64,000 nucleotides of DNA, from assembly GCF_007970185.1 (NCBI RefSeq), contig NZ_CP042431.1, positions 4,464,001 to 4,528,000 of the forward strand, given 5' to 3'. Shown here one piece after another: positions 33,980 to 56,270 of the stretch. Below the pieces are notes generated by a model. The model was not told the DNA's origin. It saw only the letters and a program-made list of their open reading frames with translations, and did no database searches. Position numbers and translations under genes: made by a program. This stretch comes from Pseudobacter ginsenosidimutans (GTDB lineage Bacteria > Bacteroidota > Bacteroidia > Chitinophagales > Chitinophagaceae). Each line of letters starts with the position of its first letter. The stretch's first letter is position 1.

Positions 33980-35881
33980 CTAGTAATGCCATCTTACGAA
34001 AGCCTCCATGGCTGCGTATTTGGTAAGACCCAGCTGTGCATACAGGTTTGCCGTATTGGAGTTGCGGTCCTCAGCACGCTGCCAGAATTCGCGGCTGTCT
34101 GATCCCTGGAAGGGGACCATATCTTTCTGCGACTGGTGGATGAATATGCCGAAACGTTTTTTCATTACCTGCTCCGGGCTCATGGGCACTGCCATTTCGA
34201 TCTCGGCAATATCCCATTCCTGCCATGCGCCCTTGTAGAGCCACATCCAGCAATCTTTTACCCAGGGCTCATTCGCTTCTTTCAGTCTGCGCATTGCTTC
34301 GAATACGATCTCGAGACAAACCTTGTGCGTTCCGTGCGGATCGGCGAGGTCGCCTGCGCAATAGATCTGTTGCGGCTTCAGTTTGCGCAGCAGTTCAATG
34401 GTGAGCAGCACATCTTCTTCGCCCATCGGTTTTTTCTCGATAGTGCCTGTTTCGTAGAAGGGGAGGTTCTGGAAATGATAGTTGTCGTCGCTGAGACCAA
34501 CGTAACGGCAGGTTGCCTTTGCTTCGCAACGGCGGATCAGGCCTTTGATGGCGCGGATATCAGCTGTATCGATCTCATTTGATTTCTTATTCTTCAGGTA
34601 GGCTCTTGCCTGGCTGAGGATCTCATTTGATTTGGTGGCGTCGATGCCGAACATCTCTTCAAATCCAACGGCGAAGTCCATGAAGCGGGTCACAAACTCG
34701 TCGGTAACCGCGATGTTGCCGGAAGTCTGGTAAGCTACATGTACATCATGTCCCTGATCGTGCAGGCGTTGGAATGTGCCTCCCATGGAGATGATATCAT
34801 CATCCGGGTGGGGGGAGAAGATCACACAGCGTTTTGGATAGGGCTCGCTGCGCTCGGGATGGTTAGGCAGGCTGGCATTGGGTTTGCCGCCGGGCCATCC
34901 GGTGATGGTATCGCGCATCATGTAATAAACCTTGAGGTTGATCTCGTAGGCATCGCCTTCTTCCACCAGCAGTTCGCTGAGTCCATGATCGCGGTAATCG
35001 TTATTGGTAAGACTGAGAATGGGTTTGCCTGCTTTGAGGGCCATGTTCACAACGGCTTTGCGCACGAGGGCCGGCGTCCAGTCCATTTCACCGGTGAGCC
35101 AGGGGCTCTTGTAACGGGTAAGCTCAGCCGCTGCAGCTTCATCCAGCACAAAGCTCACTTCGTTGTGTTGTTGCAGAAGTGAAGCGGGGATCTGTTCGTC
35201 CACATGTCCTTCCGCTGCTTTCTGCACAACGGGCGCTTTTGCAGGGCCCCAGGCCATCAGGATCACGCGGCGCGCCTTCATGATGGTGCTGATGCCCATG
35301 GTGATGGCGAGACGCGGCACTTGTGAGAAAGTAGGGAACTCATAAGAGTTGGCAATACGGGTGGAGTTATCCAGGGTAACAAGACGGGTCTTGCTGAAGA
35401 TGCTGGAGCCGGGCTCGTTGAATCCGATATGTCCGTTATTACCGATACCCAGGATCTGCAGATCGATACCGCCGGACTGCTCTATCAGTTCTTCGTACTG
35501 AATGCAATGGGATTTGATCTTGTCCTTGGGAATCTCTCCGTTGGGAATATGAATGTTCTTCGGGTCGATATCGATATGGTCAAACAGGTTTACATGCATA
35601 AAGCGATTGTAACTCTGCAAAGCATCGTGCTCGATCGGGTAGTATTCGTCGAGATTGAAAGTGATCACATTTTTGAAGCTCAGTCCTTCTTCCCTGTGAA
35701 GGCGTACCAGTTCTGCGTACAGGGATTTGGGAGTGGATCCTGTGGCCAGGCCCAGTACACAATTCTCGTTTTTTGCTTGTTTACTACGGATCAGTGAGGC
35801 GATTTCCTGTGCAACGGCCGCGGAACCCTGTTTCAGGTTGCCGTGGATGCTCACCGGAATTTTTTCGAATGAATCAACCAT
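33980..35881 (-). CDS. nagB: Glucosamine-6-phosphate deaminase fused to a PIG-L/LmbE de-N-acetylase-like domain
   Basis: 633 residues, more than twice the size of a plain NagB. Residues 1-270 are NagB: GLATGSTPKSLY, FNLDEYYP with Asp78, LGIGNNGHIGFNEPGS with His151; these convert glucosamine-6-phosphate to fructose-6-phosphate plus ammonia. After a linker (NagB-like tail to about 330), residues 350-620 are a PIG-L/LmbE zinc hydrolase: FSPHPDDDIISMGG (HPDDD at 358-362) and DLADPHGTHK (His516, His519), the complete metal-ligand set. The second domain might act on an N-acetylated or amino sugar, but its substrate is not known. Two-domain forms of this kind occur in Bacteroidota. No signal peptide; monocistronic, with an operator-like dyad 68 bp upstream. 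Confidence 0.92.
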   Translation of the reverse strand: MVDSFEKIPVSIHGNLKQGSAAVAQEIASLIRSKQAKNENCVLGLATGSTPKSLYAELVRLHREEGLSFKNVITFNLDEYYPIEHDALQSYNRFMHVNLFDHIDIDPKNIHIPNGEIPKDKIKSHCIQYEELIEQSGGIDLQILGIGNNGHIGFNEPGSSIFSKTRLVTLDNSTRIANSYEFPTFSQVPRLAITMGISTIMKARRVILMAWGPAKAPVVQKAAEGHVDEQIPASLLQQHNEVSFVLDEAAAAELTRYKSPWLTGEMDWTPALVRKAVVNMALKAGKPILSLTNNDYRDHGLSELLVEEGDAYEINLKVYYMMRDTITGWPGGKPNASLPNHPERSEPYPKRCVIFSPHPDDDIISMGGTFQRLHDQGHDVHVAYQTSGNIAVTDEFVTRFMDFAVGFEEMFGIDATKSNEILSQARAYLKNKKSNEIDTADIRAIKGLIRRCEAKATCRYVGLSDDNYHFQNLPFYETGTIEKKPMGEEDVLLTIELLRKLKPQQIYCAGDLADPHGTHKVCLEIVFEAMRRLKEANEPWVKDCWMWLYKGAWQEWDIAEIEMAVPMSPEQVMKKRFGIFIHQSQKDMVPFQGSDSREFWQRAEDRNSNTANLYAQLGLTKYAAMEAFVRWHY

Positions 35882-35948
35882 AACTCTTGTGTTTTTTGAA
35901 GTTGCACGAAATTAACAGCTAATTTCAATATTTATGCAACAAAATTTA

Positions 35949-35964
35949 ATGCAAACGCTTGCAT
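35949..35964. promoter_or_regulatory. Operator-like dyad upstream of the nagB fusion gene
   Basis: ATGCAAACGCTTGCAT has perfect 6-bp outer arms (ATGCAA/TTGCAT) with an ACGC centre, a typical LacI-family half-site arrangement. It lies 68 bp before the nagB fusion start, with a further half-site (TTTATGCAAC) at 35931-35940. Confidence 0.55.
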
Positions 35965-36009
35965 GAAATGTATGAACGTGCTGAATTCCAGTGTTAACGA
36001 ACGGTAGTA

Positions 36010-36594
36010 TCAGAGCAGGAAACTGAGCAGGCTGTAATGTCTGAGCAGGATATTCTTCATGGCTTTTACGGCCTGATAGAGCAGGTTGCGGGCTACCTGG
36101 TAATTGATGTTCATGATCTCGCTGATCTCTTCATAGCCGAGATTCTGATAGAATTTGAGGTAAACGATCTCTTTCTGACGGATGGTCAGTTGATTGAGGG
36201 CCTGCACCACCCTGGCAGTTTTTTCTTCGGACTCCTGTTTGCCGATGATGAAATCCTCATAGCTGATCTCGAAAACGGAATTCTCTGTAAGTTCAGCCTG
36301 GAATTGTGAAGTTGATCTTTTCCGAAGTGCTTTGAGCAGTTTGTATTTCATGGCCTTCAGGAGATAGGCCTTTACGGAGATGGAAGGAGGTGGATTCTTG
36401 CTTTGCCAGAGCTCGATGAACAGTTCCTGGATGCAATCTTCCAGAACGGCTCTGTCTGCGCAAATCTTATGGCCGTACCTGAACAGATCAGGGTAATACT
36501 GACGGAATAACCAACCCAGCGCCTCACGGTCACCCTGGATAAAGGTCTGCCAGTAATGAATATCCGGCCGGTGTTTCATTTTCTCATTCTCCAT
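36010..36594 (-). CDS. ECF-type RNA polymerase sigma factor
   Basis: 194 residues. Sigma region 2 (WQTFIQGDREALGWLFRQYYPDLFRYGHKIC, then DCIQELFIELWQ) and region 4 (LTIRQKEIVYLKFYQNLGYEEISEIMNINYQVARNLLYQAVKAMK) are both present. This is the FecI-like ECF type of Bacteroidota that is held by a FecR anti-sigma protein and directs transcription of a SusC/SusD pair. It is divergent from the FecR gene 134 bp away, where more usual layouts place sigma before FecR on one strand. Confidence 0.95.
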   Translation of the reverse strand: MENEKMKHRPDIHYWQTFIQGDREALGWLFRQYYPDLFRYGHKICADRAVLEDCIQELFIELWQSKNPPPSISVKAYLLKAMKYKLLKALRKRSTSQFQAELTENSVFEISYEDFIIGKQESEEKTARVVQALNQLTIRQKEIVYLKFYQNLGYEEISEIMNINYQVARNLLYQAVKAMKNILLRHYSLLSFLL

Positions 36595-36614
36595 TAGTTA
36601 TGGTGCAAGCAAGC

Positions 36615-36658
36615 CCGGTAAACCTACCGGTAAAAATGCTTAAAACCAATTTTTGGTT
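36615..36658. promoter_or_regulatory. Two dyads in the sigma/fecR divergent gap
   Basis: CCGGTA-AACC-TACCGG (36615-36630) and AACCAA-TTT-TTGGTT (36644-36658) are both perfect inverted repeats within the 134-bp gap between the sigma and FecR starts. They may be regulator sites for the two divergent genes or RNA hairpins. Confidence 0.35.
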
Positions 36659-36728
36659 AAAAAAAATTAAAAAAACTTCATTACAGATTTGTAATAATGG
36701 ACACTTATTTCCGGTATAACGCTGTGTT

Positions 36729-37730
36729 ATGGATAGAAACTTTTCAAATATTGAAGATATAATCGCAGACGAGCGATTCCAGGCCTGGTATTTCAGAAAC
36801 GATGGTAAAAACCGTAACGACTGGGAGTCCTGGATGGCCGGCAATCCGCAACAGGCAGCCCTGGTTGCAGAAGCGAAGGAATACCTGGATCAACTGGTGA
36901 TTGCTGAGCAGTCGCTTCCCGAAGCACAACTGGTCCAGGCCGAACAACGGTTGATGGCAGGCCTTGCCGCAATGGAAACACCTGTGATCAGCACTCAACC
37001 TGTAACCGGAACCGTGAGAAAAATGAAACGCTGGATTGGCGTAGCGGCCGCGGTGGTTGTGCTGGCAGTTGCAGGTCTTCTCTATTTGTACAATACAGCG
37101 CAGGATATGGTGCAGACCTCATTCGGTGAGTTGAAGGAACAACAATTGCCGGATGGTTCCAAAGTAACACTGAATGCCAACAGTACCATTACCTATTCCA
37201 AAGGCTGGGACAAAGGCACTGAGCGCGAAGTGTGGTTGAAAGGCGAAGCTTATTTCCATGTAAGTAAAACGCCTGCCAAAAGTAAATTCGTGGTACATAC
37301 AGATCGCTTCGATGTAGTGGTTACCGGCACGCAGTTCAATGTGGTGAACAGGTCTGATAAGACCAATATCATGCTCACTGAAGGAAGCGTTACACTGATA
37401 ACGCCTGATGGCAAAACCCATAAGATGGTGCCGGGTGATTTTGTGGAAGTGAACAACCGGGAATTGCAAAAGAAAACGGGCCGGGAAGAAAATGTACTGG
37501 CCTGGAAAGACAAGAAACTCATCTTTGAAAATACACCGTTGCATAGCGCACTCGAAAAGATAGAAGAGCATTACGGGATCAGGATCACGATTGGCAATGC
37601 TAATATCGGTAACAAACCTATCAGCGCTATCTTACCCAATGATAACCTGGATGTATTACTGCAGGCGTTGGAAGCTACCAACGAATTCCATGTGATACGG
37701 AAGGATGGTGAGATCATTATTACGGAGTAA
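36729..37730 (+). CDS. FecR-family anti-sigma factor
   Basis: 333 residues. The cytosolic N-terminal part (1-100; FQAWYFRNDGKNRNDWESWMAGNPQQAALV) would hold the sigma factor; a single membrane helix spans about 102-121 (WIGVAAAVVVLAVAGLLYLY); the periplasmic FecR domain has QLPDGSKVTLNANSTITYS, REVWLKGEAYFHV, VVTGTQFNVVNRSDKTNIMLTEGSV; the last 80 residues (ENTPLHSALEKIEEHYGIRITI) form the DUF4974/STN-like tail that senses the SusC signalling domain. It precedes the STN-containing SusC by 280 bp of leader. A surface ligand bound by SusC/SusD would thus release the sigma factor. Confidence 0.95.
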   Translation: MDRNFSNIEDIIADERFQAWYFRNDGKNRNDWESWMAGNPQQAALVAEAKEYLDQLVIAEQSLPEAQLVQAEQRLMAGLAAMETPVISTQPVTGTVRKMKRWIGVAAAVVVLAVAGLLYLYNTAQDMVQTSFGELKEQQLPDGSKVTLNANSTITYSKGWDKGTEREVWLKGEAYFHVSKTPAKSKFVVHTDRFDVVVTGTQFNVVNRSDKTNIMLTEGSVTLITPDGKTHKMVPGDFVEVNNRELQKKTGREENVLAWKDKKLIFENTPLHSALEKIEEHYGIRITIGNANIGNKPISAILPNDNLDVLLQALEATNEFHVIRKDGEIIITE

Positions 37731-37802
37731 ACAGCTTTTTTCGGATCAGGCCTTCTTTTATTGTCATTCAGTTCAATAAAGCTTCATTGAGATGTTGTGA
37801 AA

Positions 37803-37947
37803 GCATCCGATGCCGGTTGACTATTGTCTGAAAGTTAGTAAGAACGGGGTTCTTCACAGATCAAAAGGATGCAGGCCTGCTGTTGGGGACACAGCAGGAA
37901 TTGCATCCGGGGTTGGGTGGTTCGTCCTCACCACCTGCCCGGGTCAG
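37803..37947 (+). promoter_or_regulatory. Structured 5' leader upstream of susC with competing hairpins
   Basis: Three hairpins lie in a row: 37838-37857 (GTAAGAAC/GTTCTT, loop GGG), 37867-37908 (GGATGCA/TGCATCC with inner CTGCTGT/ACAGCAG), and 37907-37942 with inner GGTGGT/ACCACC and outer CCGGG/CCCGG. GCATCC at 37803-37808 could also pair with GGATGC at 37867, excluding the second hairpin. No known riboswitch family fits clearly. Type of control is unknown. Confidence 0.5.
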
Positions 37948-38010
37948 TGCAAAGTCGGCCTGAATATAAAACCCAAAACCAGTACATCACTATTTAAAAA
38001 ACGCCGCATT

Positions 38011-41000
38011 ATGAGAAGTTTTCAGCGTAGAACTGGATCTCTGGCCATTGTGCTGGGCATACAACTGGCGTGTTTACCTGCTAGTTTTTCGCAGGAGTCG
38101 TATGCCTGGATGGACAAGCACAAGAATAACAGACAATCGTCTTCGGCCAATACTCAACAAGATGATTCCAGCCGCAAGCAGCAAACCTTGTTCAAAGTCT
38201 TAAAGGATCTCAACAAAACCAAAGGAGTCTATTTTCTTTTTGCCGACCAGAGTTTCGGAGAAAAAATGGTAAATCCGGTAAAGAATGAAAGCGCAGACAT
38301 CGAGAAGATACTGACGCAGGTACTGGAAGGTACCGGACTGAAATATAAAAAAGTAAATGAAAAAACTTTTGTGATCCTTTCCGTAAAGGAAAACACAAAA
38401 AACGAATACAACCTGGCGCCGGTTACATTCTCCGGCAATGACCGTTCACAGGATGCCCAGTCTGCAGAAACAGTGAAAGGGCGGGTAACGGATTCCACCG
38501 GAGCGCCCGTTGCGGGCGTAAGTGTAACGGTAAAGGGCACACGCAGAGGTACCACTACCAGCTCCAGCGGCGATTTTTCGCTGGAAGCCAATAAAGGGGA
38601 AACCATCGTTTTCTCTGCCGTGGGCTACAATCCCCAGGAAGTGCTGATAGGGGACCAGACATCTGTCAATATCTCCCTGGTGGCGTCAGGTGCGCAATTG
38701 AATGAAGTAGTGGTGACGGCTCTGGGCATCAACCGTCGCTCTAAAAGCATTACTTATTCCACACAGAAAATAAACGGGGAACAACTCACCACAGTGAAAG
38801 ATCCCAACCTCATCAACAGCCTCAATGGTAAAGTAGCTGGTCTAACCATCAACAGAAGCGCATCAGGCGCCGGTGGTTCTGTGAAAGTGGTGATGCGTGG
38901 TAATAAGTCTACCCAGAACAACTCGCCGTTGTATGTGATAGATGGTATTCCGATGTACAATACATCCCTGGGGCAGCCAGACAATGCATTTGGCGAATCA
39001 AATGGATCGGGTAGCCCCGGCCGTGATGGTGGCGATGCCATTTCAAATATCAACCCGGAAGATATTGAGTCCATGCAGGTGTTGAAAGGTGCTTCCGCAG
39101 CGGCTTTGTACGGAAGCCAGGCTGCCAACGGAGCGATACTCATCACTACCAAGAAAGGTCGTTCAGGTGCTGCCCGCATCACGCTCACCAGCAGCCTTAC
39201 GCTGGACCGGGTAATGCTGAAGCCCGAAGCGCAGTTCGATTACGGTCAAACCTATGCGCCGGACGGCTCAGGCAATGAAGACGGATGGGGAGAAAAAAAT
39301 GGAAAAGGCGACTTTACCAATGATTTCTTCCGCACAGGAATTACCTGGATCAATGGCATCAACCTTACTGCAGGTTCTGACCGGGCGCAAACCTATTTCT
39401 CTTATTCCAACACAGAAAACAAGGGAGTGATTCCAACCAATCGCTTCAACCGGCATACTTTTACTTTCCGTGAAACCGCCAAATTCTTCAATGATAAATT
39501 CACGGTGGACGGGTTTGTAACGCTCACCAGGCAGTCAAGCGATAACCGCCCTGTTTCCGGATTCTATAATAACCCGGTGATTGGCGTTTACTACTTCCCG
39601 CGTAACCTGGATTTCAACGATTACAAAAATAATTTCGAAGTACTCAGCGGCCTCAGGGCATTGAATGTACACCGCTGGTGGAATGTGGATTACGATAAAG
39701 GCAAACTCGGAGGTAACTTTTCTCAAAATCCTTATTGGATCCTTGAACGCAACAGGCGTGAAGATAGTCGTGATCGGGCTTTCAGCTCTCTCGCACTCAA
39801 ATATGCGCTTACTCCCTGGCTGAGCATTCAGGCAAGAGGTAACTATGATATGGCTGTAGACGATTATGAGTCACGCATGCATGCCAGTACCAATACTACA
39901 CTGGCTGATTACAATGGACGCTTCATTTATTCAAGAAGTAAAGATAATGTAGCGTATGGCGATGTGCTTGCGCTCCTGAATACAGACCTTACGCCTGATC
40001 TTACGCTGAATGCAACAGTGGGTGCATCTATCAACGATGCAAAGGTTACTGATCAGCTGGTGTTGGATTCATACCGGGCGGCTGACCCTTCGGGAAATCA
40101 ATTCGGGTTATCCATTGCCAATGTATTTACAGCACAGAATATCCTGCCTGTCAATCCGAACCGTCAGCAATCGGTTGTAAAGTATCAGACACAATCTGTT
40201 TTGGGAAGCGCTTCACTGGGTTATAAGGATTTCCTGTTCCTTGACCTCACAGCACGTAACGACTGGTCTTCAACACTGGCATTCACACCCAATATCAGTT
40301 TCTTCTATTATTCTGCCGGAGCCACAGCTGTAGTGAATGAAATATTGCAACTGCCTGCTGCAATCGATCTGGCAAAATTCCGTGTGAGCTATGCTAAGGT
40401 GGGTAACAGTGTACGCGCTTTTGCCACCAGACCGCCTGATTATACTCAGAGCCCCAACAGTAGTCAGCTTGTAAAAAACACGCAGGCTTCATTTCCTGGC
40501 AAAAACCTGAAACCAGAAGACAACCGTTCGCTGGAGTTTGGTACCGAATGGCGTTTCCTGAAAAATCGTCTCGGCATCGATATCACTTATTACAAGAATG
40601 ATAACTACGACCAGTATTTTGAAACGCCCGCACCTGCAGCTTCAGGTTATACCACTTATTTCCTCAACCTTGGTCATATCCAGAATAAAGGCTGGGAGAT
40701 CATGTTGAATGCTGTACCGGTAAAAACAAAAGACCTGGAATGGAGTACCGCGGTGAATTTTGCTTCCAACAAGAACAAGGTGGTGAAACTAAGTGAAGAA
40801 GGTATTACCAGTGGTGTTGGTCAATTCAACCTGGGACTTTTCGATAATACTTTTGGTCCGGTTGTGCGTGAAGGCGGCAGTTTTGGCGATATCACTTCCA
40901 ATGTTGCCACCAGGGACGAGAAAGGAAATCTCATACTGGATGATGTAACCGGCGCACCGATCCGCATGCAGCAACAAACCATCAGACCGGTGATCGGAAA

Positions 41001-41523
41001 TCCAAACCCCGATTTCACAGCAGGTTGGAACAATACGATCAGGTATAAGAGACTCTCTCTTAATTTTCTCTTCGATGGCCGTTTTGGTGGAGAAGTGATG
41101 AGCCTTACACAGGCTGAGCTGGATGCATTAGGCTTCAGTAAAGCCTCTGCCGATGCAAGGGAAGCAGGTGGTGTATATGTAAAGGGGATCAAGCAGAATG
41201 GAACAGCATTCGAAGGAAAAGTAAATGCCAGGGATTACTATGGAGCCATCGGTAAGAGGGATGGTATTGGCGAATTCTATCTGTACGACGCTACTGCCGT
41301 CAGGCTGCGTGAATTATCTATCGGCTATGCGGTACCGTTAAAGTGGAAAGGTATCAGGGAACTCAATGTTTCTCTTGTAGGTCATAATCTCTTCTTCGTA
41401 AAACGCGACGCTCCGTTTGATCCGGAAGTGAGTATGAGCACCGGAAACAGATTGCAGGGCGTGGATGTTTTTGGACTGCCTACTACCAGGAGCATGGGTC
41501 TGAATGTAAAAGTCGGTTTCTGA
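38011..41523 (+). CDS. SusC/RagA-type transporter with STN signalling domain
   Basis: 1170 residues from the ATG at 38011 (MRSFQRRTGSLAIVLGIQLACLPASFSQ signal peptide). The open frame extends to 37810, but that part is Cys-rich, lacks a signal sequence and lies in the structured leader. An STN domain (about 50-130: TLFKVLKDLNKTKGVYFLFADQSF to FVILSVKEN) that contacts FecR is followed by a carboxypeptidase-regulatory-like domain (VKGRVTDSTGAPVAGVSVTVKG), TonB box LNEVVVTALGI, plug and barrel ending NVKVGF. It is the receptor of the sigma/FecR signalling unit and works with the SusD 25 bp downstream. No enzyme genes accompany it, so the ligand is not predictable; protein or peptide-derived ligands are possible. 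Confidence 0.95.
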   Translation: MRSFQRRTGSLAIVLGIQLACLPASFSQESYAWMDKHKNNRQSSSANTQQDDSSRKQQTLFKVLKDLNKTKGVYFLFADQSFGEKMVNPVKNESADIEKILTQVLEGTGLKYKKVNEKTFVILSVKENTKNEYNLAPVTFSGNDRSQDAQSAETVKGRVTDSTGAPVAGVSVTVKGTRRGTTTSSSGDFSLEANKGETIVFSAVGYNPQEVLIGDQTSVNISLVASGAQLNEVVVTALGINRRSKSITYSTQKINGEQLTTVKDPNLINSLNGKVAGLTINRSASGAGGSVKVVMRGNKSTQNNSPLYVIDGIPMYNTSLGQPDNAFGESNGSGSPGRDGGDAISNINPEDIESMQVLKGASAAALYGSQAANGAILITTKKGRSGAARITLTSSLTLDRVMLKPEAQFDYGQTYAPDGSGNEDGWGEKNGKGDFTNDFFRTGITWINGINLTAGSDRAQTYFSYSNTENKGVIPTNRFNRHTFTFRETAKFFNDKFTVDGFVTLTRQSSDNRPVSGFYNNPVIGVYYFPRNLDFNDYKNNFEVLSGLRALNVHRWWNVDYDKGKLGGNFSQNPYWILERNRREDSRDRAFSSLALKYALTPWLSIQARGNYDMAVDDYESRMHASTNTTLADYNGRFIYSRSKDNVAYGDVLALLNTDLTPDLTLNATVGASINDAKVTDQLVLDSYRAADPSGNQFGLSIANVFTAQNILPVNPNRQQSVVKYQTQSVLGSASLGYKDFLFLDLTARNDWSSTLAFTPNISFFYYSAGATAVVNEILQLPAAIDLAKFRVSYAKVGNSVRAFATRPPDYTQSPNSSQLVKNTQASFPGKNLKPEDNRSLEFGTEWRFLKNRLGIDITYYKNDNYDQYFETPAPAASGYTTYFLNLGHIQNKGWEIMLNAVPVKTKDLEWSTAVNFASNKNKVVKLSEEGITSGVGQFNLGLFDNTFGPVVREGGSFGDITSNVATRDEKGNLILDDVTGAPIRMQQQTIRPVIGNPNPDFTAGWNNTIRYKRLSLNFLFDGRFGGEVMSLTQAELDALGFSKASADAREAGGVYVKGIKQNGTAFEGKVNARDYYGAIGKRDGIGEFYLYDATAVRLRELSIGYAVPLKWKGIRELNVSLVGHNLFFVKRDAPFDPEVSMSTGNRLQGVDVFGLPTTRSMGLNVKVGF

Positions 41524-41548
41524 TCATTCTTTTAAATGCTTGAAAACA

Positions 41549-43159
41549 ATGAAACGTAATCATATCTTCTTTAACCGGTTCTTTGGAGTGATGGCTGCCA
41601 TCAGCCTCACAGCAGCCTCCTGTACAAAGAATTTCGAGAAAATAAATACTGATCCCAATGGCTTGTGGGAAAAAGACCTGAAGGGGGATTTTGCCCTCTA
41701 TGGAAGCCCCTTCAACCAGATCCAACTGAGTATCCATCAATACACGCCCGACTGGCAGTACCAGCTTCAGCAGAATCTCAATGCTGATATCTGGAGCGGT
41801 TATATGATGACGCCGGTGAACTTCGCCAACAACGTCAACAATACCAACTATGCCATGGTGGATGGATGGAACGACAGGATCTGGCTCACTGCCTACGGAA
41901 ATGTAATGAGTCCTGCGCTGGCAGTTATTGAAAGGGCGAAGGCCGATAACTTTCCCAACTTCGAAGCCTGGGGACTCATCCTGAAAGTAATGGCCATGCA
42001 TCGTGTCAGCGATTTTTTTGGTCCCATCGTTTACACAAAATTCGGCACCATCAATTCCGATGGAAGTGTAACCTACGATTCACAGCAGGAAGCCTATACT
42101 GCATTCTTCAAAGACCTTGATGATGCACAGGCCAAACTGAAACCTTTTGCTGAGGATGCAAATGCACCACTGGCATTCGGAAGATTTGACCTGGTATATG
42201 GAGGCAGCTATGTGAAATGGATGAAATTCCTCAACTCGCTTCGCCTGCGGCTTGCCATCCGGATCGCAAAGGCTGATCCTGGCAAAGCAAAAACAGAAGC
42301 AGAAAAATCGCTTTCCAATTCCTTTGGCGTGATCGAGACCAATGCTGAAGATTTCATCATCGATAGTAAGACCATCACCAATCCGCTAAATATCATTTCC
42401 AACAACTGGCTCGATATCAATATGGGTGCACCGATGGAATCTTTTCTTACCGGTTATAGCGATCCCAGACTACCCATCTATTTCCAGCCAGCTACGGACC
42501 CGGCATTTGCCGGACAATACAGAGGCATACGCAGCGGTATCCAGATGCTGGATGAGAATACTTATCTGAATTTCTCAAGGTTGGGTAATCTCGGTACCAA
42601 AACACCGATGCTCACCGCCGCTGAGACCTGGTTCCTGCGTGCAGAGGCGAAGCTGAATGGCTGGACCGATGCTGGTGTGGCTTCTGTGAAGGAAGCCTAT
42701 GAAAAGGGAATTCAGTTGTCGTTTTCTCAATGGGGCCTGAGCAATGCCGCTTTCGATGCCTATAAGGTGAGCACAGCGAAACCAAAACCATATGTAGATC
42801 CGAAGAACGCAGTGAATAATGTACCTGCAGGTTCTCCCGTACTCAGCACCGTTAGTCCATTGTGGAATGAGGCCGGAACAACCGCTGAAAAGCGCGAGCA
42901 GATCCTCACTCAGAAATGGCTGGCCATCTATCCTGAATCCTGCGAGGCATGGGCCGAGTTCAGGCGTACAGGTTATCCCAAACTCTTCCCGGTTGTAGTG
43001 AATAATAGCAATAACGTAGTGCCGAATGGCGAGTTCATCAAACGTGTGAACTTCGTGATCAGTGAAAGGGAAAACAACCAGGGCGGCTACCAGGGAGCTG
43101 TTCAGAAACTCGGCGGAGCTGATAATATCAATACACGCCTCTGGTGGAATGTACCATAA
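41549..43159 (+). CDS. SusD/RagB-family lipoprotein (SusD-like 2 type)
   Basis: 536 residues from the ATG at 41549 (an upstream in-frame TTG at 41540 adds only three residues). Lipoprotein signal ends at LTAASC (Cys20). The start of the mature protein (TKNFEKINTDPNGLWEKDL) is typical of the SusD-like 2 subgroup, with late motifs TAAETWFLRAEAKLNGW and ILTQKWLAIYPESCEAWAEFRRTGYPKL. It is the surface lid of the SusC upstream, and the cassette ends here with a terminator, without glycosidases. Confidence 0.93.
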   Translation: MKRNHIFFNRFFGVMAAISLTAASCTKNFEKINTDPNGLWEKDLKGDFALYGSPFNQIQLSIHQYTPDWQYQLQQNLNADIWSGYMMTPVNFANNVNNTNYAMVDGWNDRIWLTAYGNVMSPALAVIERAKADNFPNFEAWGLILKVMAMHRVSDFFGPIVYTKFGTINSDGSVTYDSQQEAYTAFFKDLDDAQAKLKPFAEDANAPLAFGRFDLVYGGSYVKWMKFLNSLRLRLAIRIAKADPGKAKTEAEKSLSNSFGVIETNAEDFIIDSKTITNPLNIISNNWLDINMGAPMESFLTGYSDPRLPIYFQPATDPAFAGQYRGIRSGIQMLDENTYLNFSRLGNLGTKTPMLTAAETWFLRAEAKLNGWTDAGVASVKEAYEKGIQLSFSQWGLSNAAFDAYKVSTAKPKPYVDPKNAVNNVPAGSPVLSTVSPLWNEAGTTAEKREQILTQKWLAIYPESCEAWAEFRRTGYPKLFPVVVNNSNNVVPNGEFIKRVNFVISERENNQGGYQGAVQKLGGADNINTRLWWNVP

Positions 43160-43220
43160 TAGTTGTCCGTTAATGTATAGAATAGTATAACCTTAGACCA
43201 AACGATCAATAGGGTAAGTC

Positions 43221-43255
43221 AGGCTGTCCTCTTCGCGGGACGGCCTCTTTTTTTT
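43221..43255 (+). terminator. Rho-independent terminator after the second SusCD pair
   Basis: AGGCTGTCC pairs with GGACGGCCT (9 bp, one G-U pair) around TCTTCGCG, followed by CTTTTTTTT. Confidence 0.85.
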
Positions 43256-43329
43256 ACATGTGGAAGTGGTCACAATTTGTGACCACTTGACAAACTGGCG
43301 CATCTGAAAAAGCAGGAGGTAAGAAGAAA

Positions 43330-43940
43330 TCACGGTTTGAATCCGATCCTTGGCCGGTTCTCCCATTTGTGTTTAGCCGCATTTTCATCCAGCAGATTTT
43401 CCATTGCTTCAAACAAAGTATTAAGTTGAATATCATGAGTACCCAACCTTTCTTTGAGGGATTTCATTTCCTGAAGGGCATCTAACTGTTGAATACTTAA
43501 TCTCTTAACAGCAATGAAGGTTCTCATGATTGTAATTTTCATCTTAATAGCCCTTTCGGAATGAATAACACCGCTGAGCATTGCAATACCATGCTCGGTG
43601 AAAGCAAACGGGAGATTTTTAGCGGGGCGATGGGCTGTGGCCTGCGCAATTTCAACCTGAATCCCAATACTTGCATTTCGTGGGGAACTGGTCACAATTT
43701 GTGATCTCATGTCAACATGGCCGGATTTTTTAGTTGGAACCTGTGACCTCAATTGATTCCACTCTTCCGCAGTCAATCTGAACATGAAGTCGTCCGGGAA
43801 ACGCATAAGATTCCGTTTCACTGCCTGGTTCAACACTCTCGTTTCTACTTCATACAACGCCGCTAAATCAAAGTCGAGCATCACACGTTCCCCCTGATCG
43901 TGTAGATCCTGTGTTGAATACTTTCAATTTCTACCATCAT
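43330..43940 (-). pseudogene. ORF6N-domain protein with a single-base frameshift
   Basis: The main frame (43330-43884, GTG start) gives MLDFDLAALYEVETRVLNQAVKRN...PDDFMFRLTAEEW, the ORF6N DNA-binding domain common in phage and Bacteroidota, then IVTSSPRNASIG, FAFTEHGIAMLSGVI and a coiled tail. The normal N-terminal part is missing from this frame, but an ATG at 43940 in another frame reads MMVEIESIQHRIYTIRG before reaching a stop. Adding one G to the run of five (C5 at 43890-43894 on the plus strand) joins the two as IRGERVMLDFDL, the expected family sequence. So the gene carries a one-base deletion, is a pseudogene, or the base was lost in sequencing. It stands alone, with no phage genes nearby. 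Confidence 0.8.
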
Positions 43941-43975
43941 TTCAATTTTAGGTTTACGATCATTCTCACAAAACA

Positions 43976-44007
43976 AAACCTGCACGACCATATCATCGTG
44001 CAGGTTT
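43976..44007 (-). terminator. Hairpin downstream of the S15 hydrolase gene
   Basis: AAACCTGCACGA pairs perfectly with TCGTGCAGGTTT (12 bp) around CCATATCA. On the minus strand it is followed by TGTTTTGTG, a modest T-rich tail. A 12-bp palindrome TTCTCATGAGAA lies 24 bp away at 44031-44042. Confidence 0.6.
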
Positions 44008-44144
44008 CACAACCTCTTCACAGGTAGATTTTCTCATGAGAATAGTTTACGAAAGCAAACTAATTCATCTCAGCGAATTAAAAATACCTGTATCGGGTCA
44101 AAATTCGGTTCTGTATCTACGTTAGAAGAAGTGTAATAATGTAA

Positions 44145-46049
44145 TTATGGAATTACTGGTAATATGATAGAACTGCTGTTGACAGCATCGTGATGTATTT
44201 TGATAGTTGCCTTTTTGAAATCTGCATCATCGCAGGTGTAGATGTTCACGAACTGTTGCGGATTCCTGTCGAACAGCGGGAACCAGCTGCTTTGGATCTG
44301 GATCATCAGTTTATGTCCTTTTTTGAATGTGTGTGCAATATCGGGCAGCTCAAATTTAACGCGCTCCGGCTTGCTGGGTTTGAACGCTTGGGGAATGGCA
44401 AAGCTGTTGCGGAACCTGCCACGCATGATCTCACCACGAACCAGCATCTGGTAGCCACCCATGGGATAATCACCTGAACCTGCATTTCGACTGTTATTCA
44501 CCTGTGAGCCGGGATATTTGAAATCATCGGGGAATACATCGATCACCTTTACCACATAGTCTGCATCGGTAGTGGAAATGGACGTGATCAGGTCTGCGAT
44601 CACGGTGCCGCCAAGTGTTAGGTCCTGTTCCAGAACCGGCGTTTCAAAACTGAGTACATCCGGTCTGCGACTGGCAAAGCGCTGATCATCGATCATATAA
44701 TCGCGGGTGCGTACATAATGAACATCTTCTGTATAAGGAACAGGTGATTGCGGATCGCTGACGTATTCGCTGAAACTGTTTTTACCGGTGGGCTTGTCCC
44801 ACCCGAGTTTGCCATTCGGCTGAAGATAGAGAGCCTTATCAGTCTTTGCAACAGGTGGCCATTGGTTGAACTGTTTCCATTCATTTTGGCCGGTGAAGTA
44901 AACAGTGGCTTCTGCCAGTTTGGATATATCGCCTTTACCTTTGAGATGATAATTGAAATAAGGTATTTCGATCTCATTCTGAAAAAAGTGGGAAGTGTTA
45001 TCGCCAAAACGGATATTACCGAAGCGGGCGCCATCCTGTGAAGCCCATTGACCATGCCACCAGGGGCCCATCACGAGCTTGTTATTGTTCTTCGCTTTCT
45101 TTTCGATGGCAGCATAACTGCGCCATGCGCCGAAGCAATCTTCCGCATCGAAACTGCCACCTACAATCAGTGTTGCCGTGGAGGAAGGGATATGTTGTAC
45201 ATGATTGCGGACATCGCGTGCTTCCCAGAAGGCATCGCGGTTGGGATGCGCAAAAAGATCTTTCCAGAACGCAACTGTATCGCCAGTGAGCGCCATGAAA
45301 TTTTTGAGTGCGCCGATACGCAGGTAAGTATCATAATTATCATTCGATGGGAGCTTGATCTCCACATTCGGTCTTTTAATGGTGGGCAGGGGACGAGGGT
45401 ATCCGAAGCCGGCTGTAACATAGAATGCAAATGCATCTATCAGGGCGAAAGCGCCATTGTGATGAAAATCATCTCCCAGGAACCAATCGGTTACAGGCGC
45501 CTGAGGACTGGTGGCTTTCAGGGCGGGGTGACCGCTTAAAGATGCCATGGTGGAGTAGAAACCAGGGTAAGAGATACCGAAAATGCCAACATTGCCATTG
45601 TTGTTGGAGAGGTTTTTGATCAGCCAGTCGATGGTATCGTAGGTATCGCTGGCCTCATCAATGTCCTGGCTGGTCTTCTTATCCGGATTGAATGGCCGTA
45701 CATCAACAAATTGCCCTTCGCTCATCCACCTTCCACGTACATCCTGGAATACGATGATGTAATTTTCACGGGCGAAATATCTAAAATCCCTGAACCATAG
45801 ATTGGGACTGAACTGATCTCCGTAGGGGGCACAGGAATAAGGCGTACGGGACATCAGGATAGGGTGCTTTTCCGTTGCGTCTTTGGGAAGGTACACGCTG
45901 GTGAAAAGTTTTATCCCGTCCCGCATGGGGATTTGAAACTCTTTTTTGGTATAATTGTTCAGTATCCAGGCTGAATCCTGCGAGAACTGTTGCGCGAAGG
46001 CAGCCAGCAAACAAAACTGGCAAAATACCAGTAGCAATAATTTTCTCAT
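44145..46049 (-). CDS. CocE/NonD-family (S15-type) secreted hydrolase
   Basis: 634 residues with a signal peptide (1-19). The alpha/beta-hydrolase core has IPMRDGIKLFTSVYLP, SRTPYSCAPYG, VFQDVRGRWMSEG and GIFGISYPGFYSTMA with nucleophile Ser160; the Asp is probably in VGGSFDAEDCFGAW and the His in VMGPWWHGQW. The C-terminal part (400-630) is the jelly-roll domain of the X-Pro dipeptidyl-peptidase-like class. This is the layout of alpha-amino-acid ester hydrolases and CocE, which cleave ester or amide bonds of small acyl substrates. Periplasmic; substrate unknown. It is divergent from the NTF2-like gene across a 63-bp gap. Confidence 0.88.
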   Translation of the reverse strand: MRKLLLLVFCQFCLLAAFAQQFSQDSAWILNNYTKKEFQIPMRDGIKLFTSVYLPKDATEKHPILMSRTPYSCAPYGDQFSPNLWFRDFRYFARENYIIVFQDVRGRWMSEGQFVDVRPFNPDKKTSQDIDEASDTYDTIDWLIKNLSNNNGNVGIFGISYPGFYSTMASLSGHPALKATSPQAPVTDWFLGDDFHHNGAFALIDAFAFYVTAGFGYPRPLPTIKRPNVEIKLPSNDNYDTYLRIGALKNFMALTGDTVAFWKDLFAHPNRDAFWEARDVRNHVQHIPSSTATLIVGGSFDAEDCFGAWRSYAAIEKKAKNNNKLVMGPWWHGQWASQDGARFGNIRFGDNTSHFFQNEIEIPYFNYHLKGKGDISKLAEATVYFTGQNEWKQFNQWPPVAKTDKALYLQPNGKLGWDKPTGKNSFSEYVSDPQSPVPYTEDVHYVRTRDYMIDDQRFASRRPDVLSFETPVLEQDLTLGGTVIADLITSISTTDADYVVKVIDVFPDDFKYPGSQVNNSRNAGSGDYPMGGYQMLVRGEIMRGRFRNSFAIPQAFKPSKPERVKFELPDIAHTFKKGHKLMIQIQSSWFPLFDRNPQQFVNIYTCDDADFKKATIKIHHDAVNSSSIILPVIP

Positions 46050-46084
46050 GGTAAACCGTATTTTAGTGGCTTAAAAGTAAACAA

Positions 46085-46096
46085 TGTTGATCAACA
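46085..46096. promoter_or_regulatory. 12-bp palindrome TGTTGATCAACA in a divergent gap
   Basis: Perfect palindrome in the 63-bp space between the S15-type hydrolase (minus) and the NTF2-like gene (plus). Its central position would allow one regulator to act on both; no regulator gene is adjacent. Confidence 0.3.
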
Positions 46097-46112
46097 CAAT
46101 CCGGAGAAAAGT

Positions 46113-46589
46113 ATGCAACGGTATGAACAACTCATAAAAAAATTCTATACGTGTTTTCAGCAGCGCGATTTCGCCTGCATGAACAGCGCTTATCATCCGG
46201 ATGCCACTTTCTACGATCCGGTTTTCGGGAACCTCAATGCAGACCAGGTAAAAGCCATGTGGGAAATGCTAACCGGCAGGGCAGAGGATCTGCGTGTGAC
46301 CGTGAGCGATATACAGGTGGATGCTGCTGAGAAATATGGCTCCTGCCGCTGGGAAGCTGAATATACTTTTTCAGCCACCGGCAGAAAAGTGATCAATCAT
46401 GTAAAAGCGCATTTCAAATTCCAGGACGGACTGATCATCGAGCATATGGATGATTTCGATCTCTGGAAATGGAGCAAACAGGCGTTGGGCTTCAGCGGGC
46501 TCCTGCTCGGTTGGAGCGGGTTCGTTCAAACGCCGATCCGCAAAAAAGCAAAACAGGGTCTCCGGAAATTCATGGAGTCCAAACGATAG
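46113..46589 (+). CDS. NTF2-like/SnoaL-type protein
   Basis: 158 residues, no signal peptide. The cone-like NTF2 fold is indicated by EQLIKKFYTCFQQRDFACMNSAYHPDATFYDPVFGNLNADQVKAMW and a later strand pattern CRWEAEYTFSATGRKVINHVKAHFKFQDGLIIEHMDDFDLWKW. Such proteins bind small hydrophobic ligands or act as isomerases; many have no known function. The C-terminal segment (LGFSGLLLGWSGFVQTPIRKKAKQGLRKFMESKR) is hydrophobic then basic. It lies 27 bp before the glycosylasparaginase gene and may be co-transcribed with it and cutC. Confidence 0.8.
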   Translation: MQRYEQLIKKFYTCFQQRDFACMNSAYHPDATFYDPVFGNLNADQVKAMWEMLTGRAEDLRVTVSDIQVDAAEKYGSCRWEAEYTFSATGRKVINHVKAHFKFQDGLIIEHMDDFDLWKWSKQALGFSGLLLGWSGFVQTPIRKKAKQGLRKFMESKR

Positions 46590-46616
46590 AGAAAATACAG
46601 ACCTAAACAACATCAC

Positions 46617-47618
46617 ATGAGTACACGCAGGAAATTCCTGTTCAGTTCCGCCGCGGCCTCTCTTGCCACACTGGCCGGAAAAAAAATGTTTGCTGCCATT
46701 CCTGAAAACACAATAAAGAATGATCCCATCGCGATCTCTACCTGGGACTTTGGAAGGGAAGCCAATGCCGAAGCCTGGAAAACCCTTTCCAGTGGCGGCT
46801 CTGCGCTGGATGCAGTAGAGGCTGGCGTAAAGATCCCTGAAGCAGATCCCAATAATAATACAGTTGGATATGGCGGTTTTCCCGATCGGGAAGGACATGT
46901 TACCCTCGATGCCTGCATCATGGATGAACAATACCGTTGCGGCTCCGTGATGTGCCTTGAGCATATCAAACATCCAATTTCTGTAGCCCGGTTGGTGATG
47001 GAAAAAACACCGCATGTAATGCTGGTAGGGGAAGGTGCTCTGCAGTTTGCCCTGGCCAATGGTTTTCATAAAGAGAACCTGCTGACACCGGAAAGTGAAA
47101 AAGCCTGGAAAGAATGGTTGAAAGAATCGAAATATGAACCGGTGATCAATATCGAGAACCAGCAGCATTTGCCCGGCGGCCCTTATAATCATGATACCAT
47201 TGGAATGCTGGCTATGGATGCGAAAGGCCAGCTTAGCGGCGCCTGCACTACCAGTGGAATGGCATTCAAAATGCGGGGCAGGGTGGGCGATTCTCCTATC
47301 ATCGGCGCTGGTTTGTATGTAGACAATGCGATCGGAGCAGCCACAGCAACAGGTGTGGGGGAAGAAGTGATCCGCATTGTGGGATCATTCCTGGTAGTAG
47401 AGCTGATGCGCCAGGGATACACTCCCAAAGCGGCCTGCAAGGCAGCGGTGGAGCGGATCGTAAGCAGGAACCCTGCAAAAGCGAAAACCATACAGGTGGG
47501 TTTTCTGGCAATGAATAAAAAAGGAGTTTACGGCGCTTATGCATTACAGAAAGGATTCACTTATTCTGTAAAAAATGGAAAAGAAGAAAAGATAATGAAG
47601 GCGGAAAGTAAATGGTAA
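46617..47618 (+). CDS. N4-(beta-N-acetylglucosaminyl)-L-asparaginase (glycosylasparaginase)
   Basis: 333 residues. MSTRRKFLFSSAAASLATLA is a twin-arginine export signal, so the folded enzyme goes to the periplasm. It is an Ntn-hydrolase: the precursor cuts itself before Thr194 in GPYNHDTIGMLAMD, freeing the nucleophile; SGACTTSGMAFKMRGRVGDSPIIGAGLYVDN is the conserved beta-subunit region. It splits the GlcNAc-Asn bond left after N-glycoprotein breakdown, yielding aspartate and an amino sugar. A well-studied secreted homologue comes from Elizabethkingia/Flavobacterium. Its product could feed amino sugar use (nagB fusion gene 11 kb away). The next gene cutC begins around its stop codon. Confidence 0.93.
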   Translation: MSTRRKFLFSSAAASLATLAGKKMFAAIPENTIKNDPIAISTWDFGREANAEAWKTLSSGGSALDAVEAGVKIPEADPNNNTVGYGGFPDREGHVTLDACIMDEQYRCGSVMCLEHIKHPISVARLVMEKTPHVMLVGEGALQFALANGFHKENLLTPESEKAWKEWLKESKYEPVINIENQQHLPGGPYNHDTIGMLAMDAKGQLSGACTTSGMAFKMRGRVGDSPIIGAGLYVDNAIGAATATGVGEEVIRIVGSFLVVELMRQGYTPKAACKAAVERIVSRNPAKAKTIQVGFLAMNKKGVYGAYALQKGFTYSVKNGKEEKIMKAESKW

Positions 47619-47632
47619 AAGCAGAACAGAAT

Positions 47633-48352
47633 ATGGCAATACTTGAAATATGTGCTTATAATATCCAGTCTGCCTTCATAGCGGAGAAAGCAGGGGCCGC
47701 ACGTGTAGAGCTTTGCGCCAGCGCGCCTGAAGGTGGTGTTACGCCTTCACGGGGAACCCTGAGACTGACGAGGGAAAAATTATCCATCGATTTATATCCG
47801 ATCATCCGTCCGCGCGGCGGTGATTTTTTGTATGATGAAGATGAGCTGGCCATTATGAGGCAGGATATTCTCTTCTGCCGTTCCATCGGTTGTGAAGGGA
47901 TATCTACCGGTGTGCAGCTGGCAAACGGAAACATCGATACAGAAAGGATGAAGCGTATCATCGAATGGGCTTATCCGATGCTTGTGACCTGCCATCGTGT
48001 GTTCGACAGTACGCCGGATGCCTTCCGCTCCCTGGAAGAGCTGATCGGTTGCGGCTGCGAGCGTATCCTTACCAGTGGGCATGCGCCTTCTGCGCCGGAG
48101 GGTACAGCTTTACTGGCAAAGCTGGTGGAGCAGGCTGCAGGGCGGATCATCATCATGCCCGGGGCAGGTGTGCGTGCAGGTAATATCAAAGCCCTGCAGG
48201 ATGGAACGAAGGCGACTGAGTTCCATACATCGGCAAAGAAGCTGGCTACTTCTGGTGTGTCATATCACAACCCTGCCATCAGGGATACAGGAGATGTGTT
48301 TGTGGCGGATGAAGAGGAGATAAAGAGAATAATAATGGAATTGGAAAAATAA
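47633..48352 (+). CDS. cutC: CutC family protein
   Basis: 239 residues from the ATG at 47633 (MAILEICAYNIQSAFIAEKAGAARVELCA), the usual family start; an earlier ATG at 47612 would overlap the preceding gene by seven bases and add seven residues. TIM-barrel features GGVTPSRGTL, YPIIRPRGGDFLYDEDE, VTCHRVFDSTPD, RILTSGHAPSAPEG and IMPGAGVRAGNI are all present. CutC was first linked to copper homeostasis in E. coli, but its biochemical activity is unsettled. Cytosolic. Co-transcribed with the glycosylasparaginase gene, then a bidirectional terminator. Confidence 0.93.
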   Translation: MAILEICAYNIQSAFIAEKAGAARVELCASAPEGGVTPSRGTLRLTREKLSIDLYPIIRPRGGDFLYDEDELAIMRQDILFCRSIGCEGISTGVQLANGNIDTERMKRIIEWAYPMLVTCHRVFDSTPDAFRSLEELIGCGCERILTSGHAPSAPEGTALLAKLVEQAAGRIIIMPGAGVRAGNIKALQDGTKATEFHTSAKKLATSGVSYHNPAIRDTGDVFVADEEEIKRIIMELEK

Positions 48353-56089: not shown

Positions 56090-56095
56090 ACCACG

Positions 56096-56205
56096 CTTTG
56101 ATAGTTCATCAAAGTGTTACTCCCAGGGCAAATACTGCCCGTTTTAAACCGATCCTTTTCAAATACCGCTATAAACAAAACCGCCACGATTGGAGCCGTG
56201 GCGGT
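56096..56205 (+). promoter_or_regulatory. Three hairpins between fecR and susC
   Basis: CTTTGAT/ATCAAAG (56096-56114), GGGCA/TGCCC followed by GTTTT (56126-56145, a weak terminator form) and ACCGCCACG/CGTGGCGGT (56180-56205, 9-bp perfect stem). Together they form a structured 5' leader of the SusC gene, like the leader at 37803-37947, and could set the ratio of FecR to SusC. Confidence 0.45.
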
Positions 56206-56270
56206 CAACGATGTAGTTGGTAAAATGGCTTGACAACCGATTTTATTCATCAACCAATCTTTGCAAAATT

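Follow-up and report, generated by a model that had tools for sequence, protein, structure and literature searches.

In the 64,000-nt stretch of the Pseudobacter ginsenosidimutans genome analysed here (the window), the spacer between fecR and susC contains a folded RNA element which, judged by comparison with related sequences, is real and conserved. The element ends ~60 nt upstream of the susC start codon and very probably takes the shape of a three-way junction, in which a closing helix (P1) and an A-rich linker lead into a long hairpin (P2) and a second hairpin (P3). It belongs to what is apparently an undescribed, narrowly distributed structured RNA, as far as Rfam and a literature search by title and abstract show. 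In this soil bacterium, a sigma factor gene on the minus strand is followed by fecR, the leader, susC, and a susD-like gene, all four on the plus strand (Table 1). The structure is conserved, covaries, and always occupies the same position 5' of a single gene, as is characteristic of a structured cis-acting mRNA leader.

Table 1. Genes of the locus and parts of the leader element, in window coordinates
Feature	Position	Strand	Details
ECF-type sigma factor, divergent	36010..36594	-	Pfam Sigma70_r2, r4_2
fecR (anti-sigma, FecR with FecR_C)	36729..37730	+	immediately 5' of the element's spacer; Pfam FecR 2.1e-17, FecR_C 5e-13
Conserved RNA element	37850..37953	+	covariance model R1/R2 match, 118-125 bits
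P1, 5' strand	37854..37862	+	UCACAGAUC; partner 37942-37950
Linker J1/2	37863..37866	+	AAAA, A-rich
P2	37867..37908	+	lower stem 37867-37872/37903-37908; upper stem 37876-37883/37891-37898
L2 core	37885..37890	+	GGGGAC; proposed L3 kissing partner; identical 6/6
P3	37910..37940	+	37910-37912/37938-37940 and 37914-37921/37930-37937
L3 core	37924..37929	+	GUCCUC; proposed L2 kissing partner; identical 6/6
P1, 3' strand	37942..37950	+	GGUCAGUGC
Conserved G-poor tract, element to susC start codon	37966..38010	+	leader alignment; tract G fractions
susC (TonB-dependent receptor)	38011..41523	+	Pfam STN (below the curated cut-off), CarbopepD_reg_2, plug
susD-like gene	41540..43159	+	Pfam SusD-like 7.3e-164

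Fold and covariation

The three-way junction was drawn from four aligned sequences and then compared across the six available genomes of the genus, which include the window's own (G000). One end pair of P1 is U-C in the window's genome. The last three A of the linker are invariant across the six genomes, in which the invariant unpaired bases are the two loop cores and this A-rich linker. The original prediction, made from the window alone, had described three consecutive hairpins at 37803-37947, including a 7+7-bp double stem. All three hairpins are present, the first at 37840-37854 and the others as P2 and P3, and P2 does have a double stem, with 6 or 7 bp in one part and 8 bp in the other. 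The conserved RNA spans 37850-37953, and on our reading of the alignment the stem of hairpin 1 is kept in only three of the six genomes. Neither P1 nor the complementarity between the two loops had featured in that description.

On the model-fitted alignment of the six genomes, both partners have changed in 18 of 40 pairs, compared with a shuffled mean of 5.8 (0/500 shuffles as high), and sliding the partners leaves just 3-6 such pairs. Across the same alignment 92.8% of cells pair, although cell counts are not independent events here because four of the six sequences share 85-95% identity across the element. Both-side changes were found in six of the nine pairs of P1 and in six of the eight in the upper stem of P2, which is 100% paired in the six genomes, while P3 has 90.6% of its cells paired and two pairs with both-side changes. 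Compensatory examples include U34-A42, which becomes A-U in G004, and G63-C89, which becomes A-U in G003. The pairing of P1-P3 is maintained although sequence identity drops to ~50%.

Because the alignment used for these counts was fitted to the covariance model and so leans towards the structure, the test was repeated on an unfitted MAFFT alignment. In this case, 9 of 33 predicted pairs stay paired through both-side changes, and RNAalifold returned -27.2, whereas 500 column shuffles averaged -11.7 (sd 3.0) and none was as low. The covariation term of the unfitted alignment was slightly unfavourable (+1.59), because two diverged rows are partly misaligned. With three sequences (one close, two diverged), the value was -20.8 against -10.3 (sd 2.8; 0/500), and P1 was missing from the prediction in that run. 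Alignments of the six genomes thus fold much better than their column-shuffled counterparts. Covariation across relatives, which the original prediction had proposed as a check on itself, is found with both kinds of alignment.

The stability of the single sequence was rejected as evidence, given that several FecR-SusC spacers in the genome are equally or more stable. The segment 37795-37965 has a folding z of -2.96 and the core 37850-37953 one of -3.35. When ranked by z, the leader comes just 7th among 29 scored FecR-SusC spacers of its own genome, so folding z alone is weak evidence. These 29 comprise this leader and 28 of 30 loci sampled from ~150 FecR_C matches, two sampled loci having no downstream ORF. 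For the full leader, with kissing energy excluded, the predicted probability of P1 is ~0.7-0.99 in G002, G004, and G003, and 0.35 in G005. It is 0.11 in the window's genome in the equivalent pseudoknot-free fold, because another closing helix competes there. For G001, the full leader folds best, pseudoknots aside, without P1 (P = 0) and with L2 paired elsewhere; the three-way junction falls 2.3 kcal/mol short of the segment's pseudoknot-free optimum, with the kissing energy left out.

We also evaluated whether the leader could be coding. The true start of SusC is the ATG at 38011 (MRSF), not the ATG at 37810. The frame that runs from 37810 into susC spans 70 open codons in the window but just 20, 20, and 14 in G002, G004, and G003, respectively. 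A longer SusC starting there was rejected on these grounds, and for the same reason the leader 5' of susC is probably noncoding.

Loop cores, distribution, and family assignment

The L2 and L3 cores are identical at 12 of 12 positions in all six genomes, against 46 of the 90 remaining aligned columns identical to the window in G005 and 32 of 90 in G001 (hypergeometric P of 7e-4 and 2e-5, respectively). The two loops can form a 6-bp kissing helix. Six-pair complementarity arises by chance in 9% of cases with shuffled loop letters and in 1.4% with uniform letters, and since the former is not rare, it is the conservation and not the complementarity that bears the weight. Because the loop cores never vary, their pairing is not proven by the comparison, and the invariant loops could just as well serve to bind a protein or an RNA. 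A search for the loop pattern GGGGAC..GGTNNGTCCTCNCC matched 4 of 396 genomes of the order, all from this genus, and its reversed control matched 3 of 396; G001 and G004 are not among the listed rows, and G001 ends in CCCT and therefore cannot match.

Covariance model R1, built from four sequences, recovered a fifth copy in G005 (28 bits), between fecR and susC as elsewhere. After a FecR search, it also recovered a sixth in G001, with 17.4 bits on 40 kb. Model R2, consisting of the R1 set and G005, scores the G001 copy at 30.5 bits. With R2, the element was observed in 6/6 genomes of the genus, in one copy each and always in the spacer that separates this fecR from this susC. Among the rest of the 294 family genomes searched, 0/288 gave a match at E<=0.1. 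With filters off, R2 found it at 0/24 FecR-orthologue loci of other genera, which makes the element dispensable for the gene arrangement, and it was found at 0/30 sampled paralogous FecR loci of the window's own genome.

A DNA search matched four of the six genus genomes, and in their leader alignment the conserved block at ~37850-37953 is accompanied by a second block just 5' of the start codon. Conservation in these four closest genomes likewise extends over the tract leading to the susC ATG. No further copies were found in the window's own genome by DNA search, where 12 other places are short chance matches, and the many short matches of a family-wide DNA search at E up to 1 were also taken as chance. 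Two weak R1 hits in G181 (E 0.003) were rejected, as they do not lie between fecR and susC and R2 missed both; one overlaps an Asparaginase_2-like frame, and the other falls within a long coding frame. Weak R2 hits in G023, G025, and G158 (E 0.2-0.74), which are without the GGGGAC/GUCCUC loops, were rejected as chance.

In four genomes of a sister genus (g85; loci L054, L056, L057, and L058), the fecR-susC spacers share a hairpin, CUGCU-GCUCCGGAA-AGCAG, whose outer C-G pair is G-C in one genome. This hairpin occupies the same place before the orthologous susC, and its CUGCU/AGCAG stem resembles the upper stem of P2. Its loop, however, is GCUCCGGAA and not GGGGAC, P1 and P3 were not seen, and R2 gave no match. 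It is perhaps a simpler relative of P2.

The original prediction that no known family matches agrees with what we found. Rfam 15 returned no matches for the window at the gathering threshold, and the best match of a sensitive search with the window leader had an E of 0.45, far below gathering, with no riboswitch among the matches. For the G005 and G001 leaders, there were none at E up to 1. No report of a structured susC leader in Chitinophagaceae was found by title and abstract, with subscription journals thinly covered.

Transcription context and candidate functions

Several observations suggest that fecR and susC are probably co-transcribed. By our calculation, the G005 element begins ~25 nt after the fecR stop. 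Of 24 orthologous loci in other genera, 16 have fecR-susC spacers of 21-92 nt, and the remaining 8 have spacers of 160-258 nt. A scan for TAnnTTTG-type promoter motifs from -700 to +300 of the fecR stop found none near the element in 6/6 genomes, bearing in mind that the ECF-sigma consensus may differ. ECF-sigma sites may escape such a scan, and a promoter inside the fecR-susC spacer is conceivable on that account; in G000, ~119 nt of spacer precede the element.

As the genes are probably co-transcribed, our preferred reading is an intercistronic element that would uncouple the output of SusC/SusD from that of FecR, whether by stability, processing, or a bound factor. We put forward only tentatively, at somewhat under even chances, that this structured RNA acts in cis within a fecR-susC-susD mRNA, its target being the susC part. 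The L2 and L3 loops would kiss and lock P2 beside P3, and, less certainly, the three genes would share one mRNA. After processing, the compact fold would sit close to the 5' end of the susC portion, or right at it, where it could shield this stretch of mRNA or attract an sRNA or RNA-binding protein. The outcome would be abundant SusC/SusD and scarce anti-sigma protein from the same operon. REP hairpins are known as intercistronic mRNA stabilisers between E. coli operon genes. As with those, a stable structure here separates genes of one orientation whose products are required in unequal amounts, whereas the element is single-copy and locus-specific, with a three-way junction and putative kissing loops, and is not a dispersed repeat. 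For environmental Bacteroidota, the element would offer a defined, mutable handle on how one operon could yield little FecR and much SusC, although its reach is narrow so far, at one locus in one genus.

Alternatively, a trans-acting RNA or an RNA-binding protein may bind the element, a possibility we consider rather improbable and draw from analogy with Bacteroides. In B. thetaiotaomicron, the sRNAs FopS and GibS together with RbpB are reported to control susC mRNAs post-transcriptionally, the pairing site of FopS being the translation initiation region of susC mRNA (PMC11697453). Both systems would place a post-transcriptional control point 5' of a SusC-like gene, and loop cores that are invariant in six of six genomes would suit such a site. 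However, FopS targets the initiation region and not a structured upstream domain, while the feature reported here is a cis structure ~60 nt upstream of the start codon.

We consider it unlikely that the kissing-loop junction is the aptamer of a new-class ligand-sensing riboswitch controlling susC, with a ligand that perhaps derives from the breakdown of amino sugars or glycoproteins. This explanation draws on topology and on gene context. Purine aptamers (RF00167 and relatives) consist of a three-way junction in which P2 and P3 lie side by side with kissing loops, and the purine riboswitch has a conserved pyrimidine-rich junction core. P1-P2-P3 and L2/L3 contacts are described in PMC5480868. 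The element has three helices, and its putative loop contact is seen as invariant complementarity. It differs in a J2/3 of ~1 nt, a long P2 with an internal loop, the lack of a conserved junction pocket or an Rfam match, and its uptake-operon context. In place of the pyrimidine-rich core, its junction has an A-rich linker and ~1-nt joints.

Genes for a NagB/PIG-L protein, an S15 peptidase, Asparaginase_2, and CutC surround the SusCD pair (window 33980-48352), and Asparaginase_2-like and CutC-like genes were read from N-termini downstream in 5/5 relatives. These neighbours offer hints of glycopeptide or amino-sugar uptake or use. An ORF6N-domain gene (43330-43884, minus strand) also lies between susD and the S15 peptidase gene, with a similar protein start in the G004 stretch.

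Against a riboswitch, the invariant unpaired bases are confined to the loop cores and linker, with no recognisable pocket, and the element has a single gene context in a single genus. No terminator was found at the element, and there was no conserved burial of the start codon, the start region having a mean unpaired probability of 0.54-0.61 in the six leaders; hence no expression platform is visible. Less likely again, in our estimation, is that a new riboswitch or protein-sensing RNA class in Bacteroidota is read out by the making and breaking of the L2-L3 kiss. SusC/SusD control is known mainly through sigma/FecR and hybrid two-component systems, and in gut Bacteroides sRNAs form a further known layer. 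If a new sensing class were involved, it would add an RNA checkpoint to the sigma/FecR control of glycopeptide or amino-sugar uptake by SusCD.

The compact conserved fold could also belong to a separate small RNA gene between fecR and susC, which we regard as very unlikely. No promoter-like site was seen nearby, there is no terminator, and the element is always directly 5' of the same susC, with the tract up to the ATG conserved as well in the four closest genomes. More doubtful still is a DNA-level inverted repeat (a cruciform, operator, or invertible segment). Perfect arms look alike in DNA, and the reverse strand folds too (z -3.40), but the plus-strand structure retains G-U pairs, and that strand gives the better consensus fold (-44.7 vs -37.7, and by a small margin of -27.2 vs -25.2 when unfitted). 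Complementarity between the loops of two hairpins would be unexpected of an operator.

The central claim of the original prediction, namely an RNA switch in which GGATGC at 37867 pairs in turn with one of two GCATCC copies, at 37803 and 37903, is hardly credible in light of these comparisons. Both exact complements exist in the window, and just 3 of 9086 sampled 6-mers have exact partners <=70 nt away on both sides. The upstream arm, however, is not conserved, being exact in one of six genomes (the window's own), reduced to the 5-base CATCC in G002 and G004, and absent from G003, G005, and G001. Its pairing probability is 0.000 whether the full leader is folded or a nascent chain that stops at 37900, and forcing it costs ~11 kcal/mol, so mutually exclusive pairing as a switch is not supported. 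A second possible competitor, 37913-37918/37971-37976, was rejected with a probability of 0.000 and a C that interrupts it in G002.

Other fecR-susC spacers

The window's genome has ~150 FecR_C matches in 7.8 Mb, a very large sigma/FecR set, and stable FecR-SusC spacers are common in it. The other such spacer in the window (56090-56270; z -3.68) contains a 9-bp hairpin and a terminator-like hairpin 3' of fecR. At 5 loci (L132, L134, L143, L149, and L154), a GGAAGTG...CACTTCC-like inverted repeat follows the fecR stop and is possibly a repeated terminator-like element. In 10 of the 30 sampled FecR-SusC loci (L128, L129, L132, L137, L140, L151, L153, L154, L155, and L157), a GTATGCA-like motif gives an ATG that precedes the usual M[KR]L start of SusC by 57-123 nt. 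This ATG is in frame in all 10 and is probably a conserved longer SusC start at those loci.
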